Shown here: piece by piece, positions 9,855 to 26,845 of the stretch
How the letters are laid out: each line of letters starts with the position of its first letter
How positions within the stretch are numbered: the first letter of the stretch is position 1
Assembly (NCBI RefSeq): GCF_000024985.1
Contig: NC_013524.1
Coordinates: 992,001 to 1,056,000 of the forward strand
Origin: Sphaerobacter thermophilus DSM 20745
Lineage (GTDB): Bacteria; Chloroflexota; Chloroflexia; Thermomicrobiales; Thermomicrobiaceae
DNA length: 64,000 nt
Reading direction: 5' to 3'
Made by a program: the position numbers and the translations under genes
The notes under the pieces: generated by a model
The model's input: the letters and a program-made list of their open reading frames with translations, nothing else
The model's database searches: none
What the model was told of the DNA's origin: nothing

Positions 9855-10061
9855 ATGGTGGAGCGCGTGTATCGCGTACCGGACGTAAGTTGTGCGCACT
9901 GCGTGAATGCCATCACGCAGGCACTGAGCCGCATCCCGGGCGTGGAGGCGGTCCAGGTCGACCTCGACACGAAGCTCGTGAAGGTGCAGGCCGGCGAGAG
10001 CGTCTCCGACGCGGATATCCGCGCTGGGATCGAAGAGGCCGGTTACGACATCGCGGCGTAG
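9855..10061 (+). CDS. copZ: Copper chaperone (heavy-metal-associated domain)
   Basis: A 68-residue ferredoxin-like HMA domain. The metal site is the Cys pair in DVSCAHCVNAI (CxxC), and the rest follows the beta-alpha-beta-beta-alpha-beta pattern through GVEAVQVDLDTKLVKV and AGIEEAGYDIAA. It should carry Cu(I) in the cytosol to an exporter. The start ATG at 9855 follows AAGGAG by 8 nt. The promoter carries a CsoR-like operator closely matching the one at the copper ATPase 36 kb away, which is its likely partner. It is a single gene, followed by a hairpin. Confidence 0.88.
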   Translation: MVERVYRVPDVSCAHCVNAITQALSRIPGVEAVQVDLDTKLVKVQAGESVSDADIRAGIEEAGYDIAA

Positions 10062-10119: not shown

Positions 10120-10213
10120 CCCGCATACCACCCGCTGATCCTCCCACACAGGACAGGACAATCGAACCGAGCGATCCTGGACGATGCGGCAGCGCGCGCC
10201 GGATGCATGGTGA

Positions 10214-10235
10214 TACAATGTTGTCACGATGTGAC
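10214..10235 (+). promoter_or_regulatory. Putative -10 box and GTCAC-N3-GTGAC palindrome upstream of GGDEF-STAND gene
   Basis: TACAAT at 10214-10219 resembles a -10 element, though no good -35 is seen. GTCAC-gat-GTGAC (10223-10235) follows it and could be an operator. Confidence 0.35.
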
Positions 10236-10283
10236 TGAAGCGCAGGCGTGCTTCTCTGCCCTGGACCGAGCAGGAGTCCAGCG

Positions 10284-13007
10284 ATGCTCTCTGCCAGCGA
10301 CGGCCGGTCGAGGTCGGATGGAACCGAGCGGGATCCGCTGACTGGAGCGCTCTCCCGCGCGTGGCTCGACGATGTTCTGGCGGAGCAGGTTGCGGCTGCC
10401 AGAGAAACTGGCCGGCCGCTTTCGGTGGCGGTCCTCGACCTGGACTACTTCAAGAGCGTCAACGATGCCTACGGCCACCGGCGGGGCGACCGCGTCCTCC
10501 GGGCGCTGGTGGAACGGCTACAGGCCAATATCCGGAGGACGGATCGGCTGTTCCGCATCGGTGGGGATGAGTTCGTCCTGGTGCTCCCCGGGACATCGGC
10601 GGCGCAGGCCTCGGCGATTGCCGCACGGCTCCTCGCGGAGGTGGAGACGATGCCCTTTGAAGGCGATCCACCGCTGACGCTCAGCCTCTCGCTTGGGATC
10701 GCCACGTTCCCCGATGATGCCGAGACGCCGAACGCACTGCTGGACATCGCGGACCGCCGCCGCTTCGCAGCGAAGCGAGCGGGGCGCGGCCGCGCGCTAA
10801 CGCGCGAGGGGGTGGTGCTGCCGGCCAGCGCTCCCGGTACCCAGGGGGATGCCGCAACTGCCGGTCGAGCAGGCGAGGCAGATCTGATCGGCCGGCAAAC
10901 CGAGGTCAGCGAGATCCTGGAGCGGCTCGGGCGCGCCCGGCTGCTGACGCTGACCGGCCCTGCCGGGGTTGGGAAGACCGGGCTGGCGCGGCACATCATG
11001 GAGCTGCTGCGCGGCGCGTTCGCCGACGGGGTCGTCTATCTGCCGTTGGCACACGTTGTCGAGCCGTCCATGGTGCCGGCGGTGCTCTCCGCGGCGCTGG
11101 GGTTTGGAGTGCCTACCGGACAGCGCAACCGGGAACCGCCGGCCGAGGTGCTGCGGGCGCGCGAGCAACTGGTCGTCATCGACCACTTCGACCGGCTACG
11201 GGACGCCGCGCCGCTGCTGACGGAACTGCTGGCCGTGGCGCCGGGGTTGAAGATCCTGGTGACGTGCCGTCGCCCGCTGCGTCTCTACGGCGAGCACGTC
11301 TACCCGGTGCCGCCGCTGGCAGTCGGGGACACCGAGACGGCGCCTGCTGTCGCCCTGTTCCTCGCGCGCGCGAGCGTGCGCTCCAGCTCGAATGCCCCGG
11401 TAGGGGAGGCTGTGGCGGCGCTCTGCGCCCGGCTCGGTGGGCTGCCACTGGCGATCGAGCTGGCGGCGGCGTGGACGGCACGCTACCCGGTCGAGGACCT
11501 GCTGGCATCGCTCCCGGGAGGCGGAGAGCCGGGGGAGGAGGTGAACCCCGGCGACGCGCTCCGCGATCTGCTCGACTGGAGCTACCGGGTGTTGACACCG
11601 GAGCAGCGACGGCGCTGGACTCGGCTGGCCGTCTTTGCCGGAGGCTGGTCGGTCGAGGCGGCCCGGGCGGTCGTCGAGGAGCCACCGGCAACGGCCCCGG
11701 AGGTAGAGGCCGCCCTGGACGCGCTGGCCGAGGTCGGTCTGATCCGTCCGGTGAGCGACGCGGCGAACCCGCCGCGGTTCACGATGCCCGGGGCGATCCG
11801 AGAAGCGGCGCTGGCCCGGCTGGAGGTGACAGGCGAGGCGGACGTGATCCACGCCCGGCACGCAGCCTGGTATCTGACGCTCGCCGAGACGGCTTTCGCG
11901 CATCACCGCGGAGCGGACCACAAGCGGTGGCTCGACCGGCTCGATGAGGAGTACGACAACCTGCGCGGCGCGCTCGGTCATGCGCTTGCGAAAGGTGACA
12001 TAACGACTGCCGCGCGGCTCGGGGCGGTCCTGTGGCGGTTCTGGGAGCGTCGGGGATGGGCGGCCGAGGGCCGGGAATGGCTCGCATCGATCCTGGAACA
12101 CCGGATGGCGCTCCCGCCGGAGATCGAAGCGGAGGTGCTGAACGGAGCCGGCGTGCTGGCCTGGTTCCAGGGGGATCTGGAGGAGGCGCGTGACCGGCTC
12201 GAAGCCAGCCTGGCGATTTCATCGAGGCTGGGCGACGCCGCGGCGATGGCGCGCGATCTCAACAATCTCGGACTGGTGCTCCGGCAGCAGGGGGACTATG
12301 CGGCTGCCGAGGCGCACTTTACCCGCTGCCTCGAAGTGCAGCGCTCGGCGGGAGATGCCTGGGGGCAGTCGATCACGCTCGGTAATCTCGCCGAGCTCGC
12401 GGTGCTGCAGGGCGACGGGCCCGCCGCGCGTCGGATGGCGGGGGAGTGTCTCGCCATTACCCGGGATGTCGACGATCAGCGGCTGCGTGCTCTGGCCCTC
12501 TGCACCACCGGCGTCGTCCTGCTCGACCAGGGCGAAACCGAAAGTGCGCGCACGGCGCTCGGCGAGTGCCTGGCGCTGGCTGAGAGCTTGGCCGACCCGC
12601 GGACGACCGCCCGCTGCCTGACCGGTCTCGGTGTGGTGGCGCTGATGCAGCGGCGGAGTGCTGCGGCAGCGGACCTGCTCGGCCGCGCGCTGGATCTGTG
12701 GTCACAGATCGGCGATCGCGCCGGTCTCCTGGAGTCACTCAGCGGCCTGGCGGGCGTGGCCGGGACCAGTGGCAACGTGCTGGATGCCGCCAGACTCTAC
12801 GGGGCAGTTGACGCTATGCACCGGGGAGCCGGCGTGCACGAGCCGCTCCTGCTGCGCCGGGCGCTCGAGCGGGTCGAGGCTGGCATCAAGGTTCAGGTCT
12901 CCCCTGAGGCATGGTCCGCGTCCTGGGGTGAGGGGCAGGCCCTGACGCTGGAGCAAGCACTCGCGCTCGCGCGCGAGGTGGCGGGCAGGGAAGCGTCGGC
13001 TGACTGA
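10284..13007 (+). CDS. GGDEF domain fused to STAND ATPase and TPR repeats (protein 1)
   Basis: A 907-residue cytoplasmic protein. Residues 1-165 are a diguanylate cyclase domain with intact features: the metal and FK motif LDLDYFKSVNDAYGH, the signature GGDEF (93-97) and the inhibitory I-site RxxD (84-87). Residues about 200-500 are an NB-ARC/STAND ATPase with Walker A GPAGVGKTG (225-233) and Walker B LVVIDHFD. From about 530 to the end are TPR-like helical repeats. The DNA-binding domain usual in such MalT/AfsR-like proteins is missing, with GGDEF in its place. It probably makes c-di-GMP under ligand control by the sensor modules; this is inference. The start is the ATG at 10284, after AGGAG. 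A longer paralogue lies at 23375-26845. Confidence 0.85.
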   Translation: MLSASDGRSRSDGTERDPLTGALSRAWLDDVLAEQVAAARETGRPLSVAVLDLDYFKSVNDAYGHRRGDRVLRALVERLQANIRRTDRLFRIGGDEFVLVLPGTSAAQASAIAARLLAEVETMPFEGDPPLTLSLSLGIATFPDDAETPNALLDIADRRRFAAKRAGRGRALTREGVVLPASAPGTQGDAATAGRAGEADLIGRQTEVSEILERLGRARLLTLTGPAGVGKTGLARHIMELLRGAFADGVVYLPLAHVVEPSMVPAVLSAALGFGVPTGQRNREPPAEVLRAREQLVVIDHFDRLRDAAPLLTELLAVAPGLKILVTCRRPLRLYGEHVYPVPPLAVGDTETAPAVALFLARASVRSSSNAPVGEAVAALCARLGGLPLAIELAAAWTARYPVEDLLASLPGGGEPGEEVNPGDALRDLLDWSYRVLTPEQRRRWTRLAVFAGGWSVEAARAVVEEPPATAPEVEAALDALAEVGLIRPVSDAANPPRFTMPGAIREAALARLEVTGEADVIHARHAAWYLTLAETAFAHHRGADHKRWLDRLDEEYDNLRGALGHALAKGDITTAARLGAVLWRFWERRGWAAEGREWLASILEHRMALPPEIEAEVLNGAGVLAWFQGDLEEARDRLEASLAISSRLGDAAAMARDLNNLGLVLRQQGDYAAAEAHFTRCLEVQRSAGDAWGQSITLGNLAELAVLQGDGPAARRMAGECLAITRDVDDQRLRALALCTTGVVLLDQGETESARTALGECLALAESLADPRTTARCLTGLGVVALMQRRSAAAADLLGRALDLWSQIGDRAGLLESLSGLAGVAGTSGNVLDAARLYGAVDAMHRGAGVHEPLLLRRALERVEAGIKVQVSPEAWSASWGEGQALTLEQALALAREVAGREASAD

Positions 13008-21878: not shown

Positions 21879-22091
21879 TCGCGACTCCTCTCGAGCCGCC
21901 GGACCGCGGTGTGATGTGGTGAAGGCGGTCCGGCACCCCGCTCGCACCCCTAAGCCTATCGCAGAGGGTATGGCTTGGCTACGGCCCTCCGGCCCGGGCC
22001 GCCCCTGTCCGGAAGGACGGGGTGACCATAGGGTGCGCTCGGCGCTGGCCGTGTGCAACTTTCATACCATAGGGGACGTTGAACACGCCAC

Positions 22092-22138
22092 TTGCGTGCG
22101 TCTATTTCCCCGGCTTATACTCGCATAGTGTACGTACA
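22092..22138 (+). promoter_or_regulatory. Promoter with TGTACGTACA palindrome upstream of recombinase
   Basis: TTGCGT (22092-22097), an 18-bp spacer and TATACT (22116-22121) form a promoter. A 10-bp palindrome TGTACGTACA (22129-22138) covers the expected transcription start and may be an operator. Confidence 0.5.
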
Positions 22139-22186
22139 TATGGCCAGGCGGCGCCGATGCCGACCGGCCAACTGGGAGCGGGACGA

Positions 22187-23194
22187 ATGACGAACGGGGC
22201 GGCTCCGACGATCGCTGACGCCATCGAGGACTTTTTCGAGAACCTGCGCCTGTCGCCACGGAGCAAGAAGACATACCGCACCGCGGTGACGAAGTTCACC
22301 GAGCATCTGAAGGAGCGGTTCGATCTGGACCCGGAAACGAGCCCGGTGACGGCGCTGAGCGAGGACCATGTCACCGACTTCGTCGCCGCCCTCATGCCGG
22401 ACGACGTCCGATCGCCGGAGGAGGTGTCCCGCATGCGCACGGCGCAGACCAACCTGGCGGCCGTGCGGAAGCTGTACGCCTACCTCGTCTCGTACGATCT
22501 GCACCCGAACCTCTCGACGGAGAAGCTGCGCACGCGTGTGGCGGCGATGATGCCGCGCTTCACGCCGCCGCCGCCCGATGTCCAGACCAGCGACCTGGAC
22601 CGCATCGTGGAGTATGTGCGCTCGCTCCCGCATGAGGTCGACCCCGACAAGGAGCTGCGCCGCCTCAAGCTGCGCGCGATGATCCTCTTCCTGTACCGCA
22701 CCGGCGTGCGGGTGTCGGAGCTGTGCGGCCTGCGACGGCGGGACATCCAGCTCGCCGACGGCACCGCCAGCATCTACCGGGCCAAAGGGGGCAAGAGCCG
22801 CACCGTGCTCTTCGATAGCGAGACGGCCGAGGCGCTGGTGGCCTACTGGGCGGCGCGCGGCGATAGCGGCCGCGGTGTCGGAGCCTTCCCGGCCTTCAGC
22901 GGGCGGGACAAGGTGGGCGTCCCCGGGCGCGCCATCAGCCCGCGCACGGTTGAGCACATCGTGGCGCAGCTCTGCGTCGCGGCGGGGGTGGAGAACCCGA
23001 TTACCCCGCACTCATTCCGCCACGGCCTGGCGACCGAGCTGGTACGCCGCCGGGTGCGTGAGTCGACTGTGCAGACCATCCTCGGACATGCCTCACCGAC
23101 CACCACCCGCATCTACGTCCACAAGGTCGCGGCCGAGGTGGCCGAGGAGTACCAGGAAGCCTTCGGCCCGTACCGTCGCCCGCTCGGCGCGTAG
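22187..23194 (+). CDS. Tyrosine recombinase/integrase (XerC/XerD-like)
   Basis: A 335-residue tyrosine recombinase. The N-terminal SAM-like core-binding domain spans about 8-110. The catalytic pentad is R175 (TGVRVSELCGL), K near 200-203 (RAKGGKSR), H275 and R278 (HSFRH), H301 (LGHAS) and the nucleophile Y310 (TTTRIYVH), so it should be active. The start is the ATG at 22187 after GGGAGCGGG. No excisionase, tRNA gene or direct-repeat attachment site is visible nearby, so it may be a resolvase-type or remnant integrase rather than part of a present mobile element. Confidence 0.87.
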   Translation: MTNGAAPTIADAIEDFFENLRLSPRSKKTYRTAVTKFTEHLKERFDLDPETSPVTALSEDHVTDFVAALMPDDVRSPEEVSRMRTAQTNLAAVRKLYAYLVSYDLHPNLSTEKLRTRVAAMMPRFTPPPPDVQTSDLDRIVEYVRSLPHEVDPDKELRRLKLRAMILFLYRTGVRVSELCGLRRRDIQLADGTASIYRAKGGKSRTVLFDSETAEALVAYWAARGDSGRGVGAFPAFSGRDKVGVPGRAISPRTVEHIVAQLCVAAGVENPITPHSFRHGLATELVRRRVRESTVQTILGHASPTTTRIYVHKVAAEVAEEYQEAFGPYRRPLGA

Positions 23195-23374
23195 CGGCAC
23201 GTCCTGGTGTGCCCGCCATCAGTACCCCTACGGAGTGAGACAACCGACTAGGCACATCGTTGCTGATGGGGGATAGCCGTGCGGTAGGTGCGTACCGTAC
23301 AGTGCGAGTAGAGACGGACGCGAGTGGGTCCCCGTATCTGCGGGTCCGACCCTTGACGAGAGTGCAGGCACGTG

Positions 23375-26300
23375 ATGTCGTCGATGCCGTCCTCGCTCGA
23401 CGTGCGGCACTGCCCCCGCGACCCGCTAACCGGGGCGCTCTCCCGGACATGCCTCGATGACGTCCTCCAGGCGACCCTCGACGCCGCGCAGCGTGAGCGG
23501 AGCCGGGTCACGCTCTGTCTCCTCGACGTGGATCACTTCAAGAATATCAACGATGCCTACGGCCACCGGCGCGGCGATGAGGCGTTGAGGGAGGTGGCCC
23601 ACCGTATCCAGCGGGAGCTCCGTAGCAGCGATCTCATGGTCCGCTACGGTGGGGACGAATTCGTCCTGATCCTCCCGGATTCGACGCACGCCCAGGCCGT
23701 CGCGCTGGCGGAGCGACTGCTCGCGCGTGTGCAGGCGACGCCGTGCCCGGGCGTGCCACCGCTGCGCCTCTCGATCAGCGTGGGCGTCGCGACCTACCCC
23801 GACGACGCGGACACTGCAGAGGCGCTGATGGAGTGCGCCGACCAGCGGCATGCCCAGGCCAAGCGGCAGGGGCGCCGTCGCGTGGTCGCCGAGGACGTGG
23901 CCGTGGCGGACTCGGACAGGCTGCCGGAGCCGGCCCGCCTGATCGAGCGCGACACCCAGCTTGCGGCGATCCACACCTTCCTTTCGCGCCTTCGCCGGGC
24001 CGGGCGCGGGGCGCTGCTGATCGCCGGGGCGCCAGGGACGGGCCGTTCGCGCCTGCTGACCGCGGGGGTCGCGGCGGCGCTGCAGCAGGGGTACGCCATT
24101 CTTCCGCTCGACGGCCGGGAACCGGTGCCGCTCGCGCCGGGGCCTGGGCGCCTGAGTGTCCCGTGGCAGGAGCTCGTGTCCCTGCCCGCCGACGAGGCAG
24201 AGGCACGGCTGCGACGCCTTGCGGCGGAGGATGGATGTCATGGGCTCCTGATCGTCTTTGATGGCTGGGACGACCTTGATCCGGCCGCCCGCTCTTGGGT
24301 CAAGAGGCTGCTGGCCGGGGCGGGGCCCATGCCCGTCGGGGTGATGGCGACCGCCGGTGGTGCCGCCTCGGTTCCGACCGCGCCGTTCGTCGCCCGGGTG
24401 GTCGTGGATGCGCTCTCGCAGGAGGCGACACGCGTCTGGGTGCGCGGCACGCTGCTGTGGGATCCGCCAGCGGACTTCATCGTCTGGCTCCACCGCACCA
24501 CGCAGGGCAGGCCCGCGGCGATCCGCGCCACGCTGGACCGGCTGGTCGAGCAGGGGGTGCTGCGCCGTGAGCCGGGCAACGGCTGGCGCCTCGCAGACGG
24601 CTACGCCGGGGCGATCCGCGATGGCGGGACGGGGCCGCTGGTGCAGCAGTATCCCCACAACCTCCCGGCGGCCCTGACCGAGTTTGTCGGCCGTACCGCC
24701 GAGGTGGCTCAGGCCCGGAGCCTCATCCTGGAGCACCGCCTGGTGACGCTCACCGGGCCCGGGGGCATCGGGAAGACGCGATTGGCGCTCGAGGTGGCGG
24801 CCGCGGTGCGCACGGACTTCCCCGACGGCGTCTGGTTCGTGCCATTGGCGCCGATCCAGGACACCCGGCTCGTCCCCGATACGATCCTCGCCGCGCTCGG
24901 CGAGCAGCAGCCCGCGGGCGAGACGGCGCTTGACTACCTGAAGGAAAAGCTCCAGGAGTCCCGCATGCTCCTGGTGCTGGACAACCTGGAGCAGCTCCCC
25001 GATGCGCCCGCGCTGGTCGCCGACCTGCTGGCGGCCTCGCGTCACCTGCGCGTGCTGGTTACCTCGCGGCACCGGCTCAACCTGCCGGAGGAGGTGGTGT
25101 TCGCCGTTCCCCCGCTCCCGGTCCCGCGGTCGGGCGACGGGTGGTCGGCTGCGAGGTTGACCGACTTCGCGGCCACCGCGCTGTTCGTGGCCCGCGCGCA
25201 GGCAGTGCGCCCCGACTTCCGGGTCACCGACGAGAATGCCGCCGACATCGCGGCACTCTGCGCGCGGCTGGACGGCCTTCCGCTGGCGATCGAGTTGGCC
25301 GCGGCGCGAGTGGACGAGTTCTCCCCGCGCGACCTGCTGGCCCAGATGGACCGGCGGCTGGCGATCCTGGACGACGGGCCGCGCGACCTCCCGGCCCGCC
25401 AGCGAACCCTCCGCGGCGCGATCGACTGGGGCTATCGCCTCCTGTCGCCCACAGAGCAGCGGTTCTTCCGGCAGTTCGCTGTCTTCGTCGGCGGCGCGAC
25501 GTTGGAGGCGGTCTCCGCCGTCCTGGGCGGTGGGCTGGGCCACGGCCGGCCGGGGCAGCCGCCCCCGGCCGACGTGGTGCGCTCCCTCTACGACAAGAGC
25601 CTGCTTCTGGCGGCGGGAGGGCGGCGCATCGGGATGTTGGAGACGATCCGGGAATACGCGCTGGAGCTGCTCGCGGCAAGCGGTGAGGAAGCGGCCGTCC
25701 GCGACCGCCACGCGGCGTACATGTTGTATCTGGTGGAGAAGGCCCAGCCACACCTCCGGGGGCACGACCAGATGCGCTGGCGGAGCCGGCTGGAGGCGGA
25801 GCGCGACAATATCCGCGCGGCCATGGCGTGGCTGATCAAGCGGCGTGAGATGGAGCGCGCGGGCCGACTCGCCGCGGCTCTCTGGATCTACTGGGACAGC
25901 GTCGGGCGGACCGCCGAGCTGCACCGGTGGCTGACGGCGGTGATCCAGGAGCGCGAGCGGCTCTCGGACCCGGTGCTGGCTGCGGTGCTGCACTCGCTCG
26001 GCTCTATCAACTGGATGCTGGGGAACTCGGACGAAGCCGAGGACTGCTTCGAGTCCGCCTTACAGCTCTGGCGGCGGCTGGGCAACCGCGAGCGGGAAGC
26101 TGCGGCGCTCAATAACCTGGGCCTCGTGGCCGGGCGGCGGGGTGAGTACGACCGAGCCGAAGATTACTTCCGTGCCAGCCTTGCCATGACTCGCGAGACG
26201 GGTGACGCCTGGGCGGTCGCGATCACGCTCTCCAATCTGGGCTGGGCGGCCCTCGAACGCGGGGATATCGTCGAGGCGATCGACCGCCTGACGGAGGCGC

Positions 26301-26845
26301 TGGCGGCCCAGGAGGCGGCCGGTGACCGGAGCGGTCTTGCGCTGACGATGTCGAACCTGGGGGCGGCCACGCTGCAGCGTGGCGACTATGCGGCGGCGGC
26401 GCAGCACTTCGAGCAGAGCTGGGCACTGGCGCACGAGTCGCGGGACGAGCGCACGGCGGTGCTGACGCTGGCGCGCCGGGCTCTGCTGGCCTTGATTCAG
26501 GGGGATCTGGAGGCGAGCAGACGCGACTGCTTCGAGGCGCTCGCGCGCTGGCAGGAACTCGGCTACAAGGCGGAGATGGTCGAGGGACTTCAGGTTCTGG
26601 CCGGGGTGGCCGCAGCGCTGCGGAAGCCGGAGGTCGCTGCCCGCCTGCTCGGCGCCGTGGCCGCGATCCGTGCCGCCACGCGCTCCCCCGGAGCCGCCTC
26701 CGTGCACCCCGAGTTCCGCCGCCTGATCGAGTCTGCCCGCGCCAGCCTGTCCCCGACCGCCTGGCAGGCTGCCTGGCAGGCAGGCCAGACCGCATCCCTG
26801 CCCCAACTCCTCGACGACGTCCAGCGCGCGTTGGGGCAGGAGTGA
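23375..26845 (+). CDS. GGDEF domain fused to two ATPase domains and TPR repeats (protein 2)
   Basis: A 1156-residue paralogue of the protein at 10284-13007. The GGDEF domain (about 14-175) has LLDVDHFKNINDAYGH, the signature at 92-96 and an RxxD I-site at 83-86. A second, AAA16-like ATPase module follows (Walker A GAPGTGRS, acidic strand LLIVFDGWDD), absent from protein 1. Then comes an NB-ARC/STAND module with GPGGIGKTRLA and LLVLDNLEQLPD, and from about 780 TPR-type repeats. No DNA-binding domain is present. The start is ambiguous among GTG 23372, ATG 23375 and ATG 23384, all with weak ribosome-binding sites. It is probably a c-di-GMP synthase gated by a STAND sensor. Confidence 0.84.
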   Translation: MSSMPSSLDVRHCPRDPLTGALSRTCLDDVLQATLDAAQRERSRVTLCLLDVDHFKNINDAYGHRRGDEALREVAHRIQRELRSSDLMVRYGGDEFVLILPDSTHAQAVALAERLLARVQATPCPGVPPLRLSISVGVATYPDDADTAEALMECADQRHAQAKRQGRRRVVAEDVAVADSDRLPEPARLIERDTQLAAIHTFLSRLRRAGRGALLIAGAPGTGRSRLLTAGVAAALQQGYAILPLDGREPVPLAPGPGRLSVPWQELVSLPADEAEARLRRLAAEDGCHGLLIVFDGWDDLDPAARSWVKRLLAGAGPMPVGVMATAGGAASVPTAPFVARVVVDALSQEATRVWVRGTLLWDPPADFIVWLHRTTQGRPAAIRATLDRLVEQGVLRREPGNGWRLADGYAGAIRDGGTGPLVQQYPHNLPAALTEFVGRTAEVAQARSLILEHRLVTLTGPGGIGKTRLALEVAAAVRTDFPDGVWFVPLAPIQDTRLVPDTILAALGEQQPAGETALDYLKEKLQESRMLLVLDNLEQLPDAPALVADLLAASRHLRVLVTSRHRLNLPEEVVFAVPPLPVPRSGDGWSAARLTDFAATALFVARAQAVRPDFRVTDENAADIAALCARLDGLPLAIELAAARVDEFSPRDLLAQMDRRLAILDDGPRDLPARQRTLRGAIDWGYRLLSPTEQRFFRQFAVFVGGATLEAVSAVLGGGLGHGRPGQPPPADVVRSLYDKSLLLAAGGRRIGMLETIREYALELLAASGEEAAVRDRHAAYMLYLVEKAQPHLRGHDQMRWRSRLEAERDNIRAAMAWLIKRREMERAGRLAAALWIYWDSVGRTAELHRWLTAVIQERERLSDPVLAAVLHSLGSINWMLGNSDEAEDCFESALQLWRRLGNREREAAALNNLGLVAGRRGEYDRAEDYFRASLAMTRETGDAWAVAITLSNLGWAALERGDIVEAIDRLTEALAAQEAAGDRSGLALTMSNLGAATLQRGDYAAAAQHFEQSWALAHESRDERTAVLTLARRALLALIQGDLEASRRDCFEALARWQELGYKAEMVEGLQVLAGVAAALRKPEVAARLLGAVAAIRAATRSPGAASVHPEFRRLIESARASLSPTAWQAAWQAGQTASLPQLLDDVQRALGQE

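Follow-up and report, generated by a model that had tools for sequence, protein, structure and literature searches.

Two proteins of Sphaerobacter thermophilus DSM 20745, P0001 and P0002, combine in one polypeptide chain an N-terminal GGDEF (diguanylate cyclase) domain, a STAND NOD and a C-terminal TPR superhelix. This architecture is real, conserved and rare. As judged from sequence and predicted structures, STAND-controlled c-di-GMP synthesis is its best-supported reading, because the catalytic residues of the cyclase are conserved, the STAND fold is found in the models, and the GGDEF domain takes the effector place that an HTH, SARP or TIR domain holds in relatives.

Domain organization of P0001 and P0002

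S. thermophilus, a non-motile thermophile of the Thermomicrobia (PMC3035262), has a genome of 3,993,764 bases on two contigs (2,741,033 and 1,252,731). Both genes lie on the forward (+) strand of the 64,000-nucleotide stretch analyzed here (the window, to whose first letter the coordinates refer). In agreement with the initial annotation, P0001 (10284..13007, 907 aa) and P0002 (23375..26845, 1156 aa) are open and uninterrupted reading frames, and AlphaFold2 models them with a mean pLDDT of 90.8 and 89.5, respectively. An AGGAG-like ribosome-binding site precedes the P0001 start at 10284 and is kept in the orthologue of a second Sphaerobacter genome (G001). High G+C DNA yields many spurious long ORFs, from which a chance fusion of neighboring ORFs, or else a misassembly, might be suspected; but the single frames are uninterrupted and the full-length models confident. 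Such an artefact has a negligible probability and was rejected, as the architecture occurs at two loci here, in G001 and in three other genomes.

The GGDEF domain of P0001 comprises residues 14-178 (10323..10817; PF00990 9.6e-39 over residues 16-169; PleD 3.3e-27), with the I-site R84-R-T-D87 (RxxD; 10533..10544) and the GGDEF signature at residues 93-97 (10560..10574), the latter assigned from the sequence and family alignment. It is followed by a flexible linker (residues 181-197; 10824..10874) with a pLDDT below 50 and a dN/dS of 0.95 against G001 (residues 173-195), a STAND NOD at about residues 198-540 (10875..11903), and a TPR superhelix with C-terminal helices (11904..13004; TPR_12 1.2e-27 in four stretches), the helices being seen in the AlphaFold2 model. 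The Walker A motif GPAGVGKT of the NOD is located at residues 225-232 (10956..10979), again from sequence and family alignment. The paralogue P0002 has a similar GGDEF domain at residues 13-173 (23411..23893; PF00990 1.8e-42 over residues 15-169; PleD 7.2e-30) with the I-site RSSD (23621..23632), identified by alignment and motif check, a first AAA-like module at about residues 183-410 (23921..24604; GAPGTGRS) that corresponds to the second AAA_16 stretch and is folded in the model, a STAND NOD at about residues 436-780 (24680..25714; Walker A GPGGIGKT) with fold matches to 6mfv and Apaf-1, and a TPR superhelix (25715..26842; TPR_12 4.9e-34). The two proteins share 45% identity over 247 aa including the GGDEF domain, and the NOD-TPR part of P0001 (residues 200-903) is 36% identical to P0002.

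Both proteins had been annotated as GGDEF, NB-ARC and TPR fusions. The GGDEF and TPR parts hold for both, whereas the Pfam NB-ARC family (PF00931) is found in P0002 only (33.9 bits, cut-off 23.5), P0001 scoring below the Pfam cut-off. Pfam scanning places the start of a P-loop NTPase in P0001 at about residue 200, and its NOD was assigned because of the homology to P0002, the family-profile match to AfsR and the fold. The Pfam and NCBIfam scans revealed no HTH or SARP domain in either protein, as the initial annotation had proposed. The Pfam scan also detected no class III cyclase domain (PF00211), leaving GGDEF as the sole cyclase, and no recognizable effector domain besides it.

Cyclase and STAND modules

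Alignment to PleD, DosC and others bore out the annotated GGDEF residues, RxxD I-site and metal ligands, which are complete in both proteins. The catalytic positions D-x-D-x-F-K-x-x-N-D, GGDEF and K..GR supply the metal, guanine and phosphate residues, and the RxxD motif sits five residues ahead of GGDEF. In an alignment of seven family proteins the R and D are invariant (7/7), the GGDEF columns are invariant or nearly so, and invariant positions are denser here than elsewhere in the chain; the catalytic residues and RxxD are present in all 11 members, two of which have GGDEL in place of GGDEF. The P0001 model superimposes on the GGDEF structure 4iob with a TMt of 0.92 and an rmsd of 1.1 (Foldseek). 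The diguanylate cyclase of P0001 and P0002 thus appears intact. Across the members no more than 2-19 residues stand before the DxLTG motif that opens the domain. The customary N-terminal stalk or sensor is therefore missing, and any control has to be exerted by the C-terminal part.

Some GGDEF domains elsewhere act as receptors only. The domain might accordingly sense GTP or c-di-GMP, through its substrate site or I-site, and thereby govern the STAND module; in this case TPR-mediated assembly rather than synthesis would be the output. The I-site kept in all members would fit such a role; however, the catalytic residues are complete and conserved, unlike those of known receptor GGDEFs, and neither protein has another recognizable effector domain, making this alternative distinctly unlikely.

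The NODs of P0001 and P0002 have the NBD-HD-WHD organization with Walker A and GLPLA motifs, in addition to a Walker B strand (LVVID/LLVLD) assigned by sequence. The layout of the chain is also that of a STAND protein, with a C-terminal TPR superhelix and the effector, GGDEF, at the protein end. The family profile matches AfsR over the NOD and TPR (1.6e-34) and PleD over the GGDEF domain (1.2e-48). Structural similarity search with Foldseek gave 6mfv (PH0952) as the top PDB match of both models (2.4e-13 for P0001 and 1.4e-13 for P0002), followed by PleD, WspR and other GGDEF structures (TM of ~0.9 by domain) and Apaf-1. These matches confirm the STAND fold of the two models. In contrast to the NOD, where Walker A is kept in 11/11 members, the additional AAA-like module of the P0002-type proteins has its P-loop lysine replaced (GRS, GQT or GHT) or lacks the P-loop in 9/9 proteins, and we read it as a pseudo-ATPase.

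Alternatively, the cyclase may be constitutive, with the NOD and TPRs merely serving to scaffold or localize it and no ATP switch operating. TPRs are common scaffolds, the linker at residues 181-197 is disordered in the model, so that no rigid coupling is visible, and one homologue (G148_a) has an apparently degenerate Walker B strand. Against this stand the retention of Walker A in every NOD, an NOD dN/dS of 0.20-0.24, which indicates a constraint like that on the other domains, and the precedent of AfsR and MalT, whose NODs do switch. We therefore regard a constitutive enzyme as fairly unlikely.

Conservation, spread and gene context

Both genes are present in G001 in syntenic positions, ~13.1 kb apart as in S. 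thermophilus, and encode orthologues with 83% (P0001) and 88% (P0002) identity. The dN/dS values against this sister genome are 0.12-0.27 in every folded domain, and both genes are under purifying selection. G002, a third Sphaerobacter genome, yielded no such protein. Outside Sphaerobacter the architecture occurs in three Chloroflexota genomes of two other families: G148 and G382, which belong to a single genus of another class, contribute three proteins apiece, and G886, of another family, has one copy split over two overlapping ORFs (L241). With 11 proteins in 5 of the ~550 Chloroflexota genomes searched and the constraint seen against G001, chance is excluded. The phyletic spread suggested as a check thus extends to four genomes besides that of S. 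thermophilus, which disposes of the annotation's refuting case of an architecture confined to one genome.

It was not seen in the ~540 other Chloroflexota genomes, where 2-14 candidates per genome were scored. None was found in 296 Actinomycetota genomes (the phylum of G504, Ilumatobacteraceae) or in 50 genomes of mixed phyla, a search that may miss the short P0001-type: the profile, built from seven rows, splits such proteins (P0001 itself appears as 426-1137), and with 2-14 candidates scored per genome such proteins may have escaped detection beyond Chloroflexota. In G148, two GGDEF-AAA-NOD-TPR genes stand in tandem (L171:6693-13531) with overlapping ends (10010-10049), one of them having the degenerate Walker B; the pair is likewise adjacent in G382 (L213).

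In a first GGDEF tree the fused domains formed one clade (97/89). When G886 and the cNMP-binding-GGDEF proteins were added, the fused GGDEFs grouped with two of the latter (96/86), and in the single-origin test on this enlarged tree (p-AU 0.31) one fusion origin was neither shown nor rejected. The NOD trees, which bear on a single duplication giving P0001 and P0002, are weak, with 77/44 in one and polyphyly with long branches in another. NOD-TPR relatives in the same order have XRE HTH, LuxR HTH, TIR or class III cyclase as effector, and GGDEF is therefore one more exchangeable effector.

The neighboring genes are unrelated, encoding a hydrolase, BrkB, beta-lactamase-like, ABC transporter, trypsin-like, isochorismatase, PAP2, integrase and URO-D proteins, and no c-di-GMP effector gene adjoins P0001 or P0002. 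An NLR-like anti-phage or stress alarm, with the cyclic dinucleotide as a death signal, would suit the prominence of STAND ATPases among anti-phage proteins and the TIR effector of a homologue in the same order. Nevertheless, PADLOC gave no model, just TPR and weak partial ATPase matches, ordinary neighbors with no effector or toxin genes flank both genes, the genes are syntenic between species, and c-di-GMP has ordinary receptors in this genome. An alarm of this kind is very improbable; neither PADLOC nor gene context supports an Avs-like or other defence system.

Upstream of P0001, the scan found no sigma-70 promoter. A TACAAT box followed by a GTCAC-N3-GTGAC inverted repeat, partly conserved in G001, was observed at 10200-10245, the repeat being a possible operator. 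Directly upstream of P0002 is a tyrosine recombinase/integrase gene (22079-23194, + strand), kept with P0002 in G001. The leader between the two genes (23214-23365) is 87% identical in G001 and contains conserved inverted repeats (CCATCAG...CTGATGG; GGGTCCCCGTATCTGCGGGTCCGACCC). It has no Rfam match, nor has any other part of the window, and as RNA it is not more stable than shuffled sequences; a known RNA element was rejected on these two grounds. One copy per genome is found, solely in two Sphaerobacter genomes, so the leader points to no co-regulated genes.

The S. thermophilus genome encodes nine GGDEF domains, c-di-GMP phosphodiesterases and one PilZ protein; among the GGDEF proteins, we read two as also carrying EAL and two HD-GYP. 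It has one c-di-GMP-I riboswitch (60.1 bits; G000:C2:1166875-1166952, - strand; locus L228), upstream of a pectate-lyase-like gene and divergent from a CpsB-like gene. The CpsB-like identity and a Tat signal of the pectate-lyase-like protein are apparent from our own reading of the sequences. This locus is a probable c-di-GMP output, and its two genes suggest extracellular polysaccharide as one such output.

Proposed mechanism and comparison with known systems

STANDs, including MalT with its TPR sensor, are ADP-bound autoinhibited monomers at rest and ATP-bound multimers when active (PMC6468293). Inhibition of the N-terminal effector of AfsR by its NOD and TPR is lifted by ATP and by ATP-gamma-S but not by ADP (PMC10936776). 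Diguanylate cyclases are active as homodimers, and WspR gains activity on clustering (PMC4933438). By analogy with MalT, AfsR and PH0952, and with PleD and WspR, we infer an ADP/ATP switch, autoinhibition, activation by pairing and the direction of control.

We propose that, at rest, the protein would be a monomer in which the NOD holds ADP and the TPR sensor and arm are clamped on the NOD. Binding of a ligand or partner to the TPR superhelix would open the NOD, which would swap ADP for ATP and self-associate, bringing the GGDEF heads on their flexible linkers into pairs, the working form of GGDEF enzymes. The paired heads would convert two GTP to c-di-GMP, with the RxxD site giving product inhibition, and the product would act on the PilZ protein and the c-di-GMP-I riboswitch of S. 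thermophilus. We consider this ATP-gated, TPR-ligand-released switch with I-site feedback reasonably probable. Several points speak against it. The oligomeric state of AfsR is unchanged by ATP binding (PMC10936776), so not every close STAND relative oligomerizes; the degenerate Walker B and the two GGDEL members suggest that some lines may have lost switching or catalysis; and neither gene has a c-di-GMP effector gene beside it. More tentatively, the proteins may be a c-di-GMP hub, in which a TPR ligand produces an ATP-bound NOD multimer that forces the N-terminal cyclase heads into pairs with no coiled-coil stalk; we hold this to be possible, if somewhat short of probable. We know of no other STAND with c-di-GMP as its direct output, and the hub, if true, would be the first.

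The architecture adds GGDEF to the exchangeable STAND effectors, which include HTH, TIR and class III cyclases. If the proposed switch is true, NLR/STAND switches and c-di-GMP signaling would be joined in one chain. Being thermostable single polypeptides with an easily assayed product, the proteins would then be a simple system in which to test how nucleotide exchange and assembly of a STAND control enzyme output, and the hub would be a distinct mode of GGDEF enzyme control. The initial annotation called the architecture undescribed. This stands for the open-access papers on GGDEF with NB-ARC, STAND or NACHT, the literature covered here. Near neighbors, namely class III cyclase-AAA-TPR, kinase-AAA-TPR-GAF-GGDEF and kinase-TPR-GGDEF proteins, are known.

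AfsR of Streptomyces (SARP-NOD-TPR) and MalT (NOD-TPR-LuxR) share a homologous NOD and TPR and place the effector at a protein end. The profile match to the AfsR structure 8k60 runs over positions 398-1004 and takes in the NOD-TPR part alone, and the N-terminal effector here is GGDEF instead of a DNA-binding domain. PH0952, a STAND with a TPR sensor solved in the resting form, is only 15-16% identical in the aligned part and has no GGDEF head. GGDEF cyclases such as PleD and WspR have the same catalytic residues, I-site and fold. Known GGDEF cyclases usually receive their input from an N-terminal sensor via a stalk or coiled coil, whereas P0001 and P0002 begin with GGDEF and have the input part C-terminal to it. 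In PleD and WspR the input is a REC domain (PMC4933438).

Several proteins join similar modules in another manner. Class III cyclase-AAA_16-TPR proteins, which resemble soluble adenylyl cyclase and are represented by L227 in this genome and L008 in the same order, also place the cyclase N-terminal to a P-loop NTPase and TPRs and follow the same logic, with messenger synthesis at the head of a STAND-like chain; however, their cyclase is class III (PF00211) and not GGDEF. Class III cyclases are distant relatives of GGDEF and make cAMP or cGMP. The same genome also encodes a 1789-aa kinase-AAA_16-TPR-GAF-GGDEF protein (G000:C2, L178:3948-9314, - strand), another join of AAA-type NTPase, TPR and GGDEF in one chain, but its GGDEF is C-terminal, behind the kinase and GAF, and groups elsewhere in the GGDEF tree. 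A kinase-TPR-GGDEF protein of Clostridium thermocellum (PMC1262709) likewise has GGDEF and TPR in one chain, with GGDEF C-terminal behind the kinase, and in vWA-MoxR conflict systems GGDEF domains occasionally replace cNMP cyclases (PMC7159879). The closest non-fused GGDEFs, at 52-53% identity to P0001 and in the same tree group, belong to cNMP-binding-GGDEF proteins of Chloroflexota (G304 and G891), which have an N-terminal cyclic-nucleotide-binding sensor and lack NOD and TPR.
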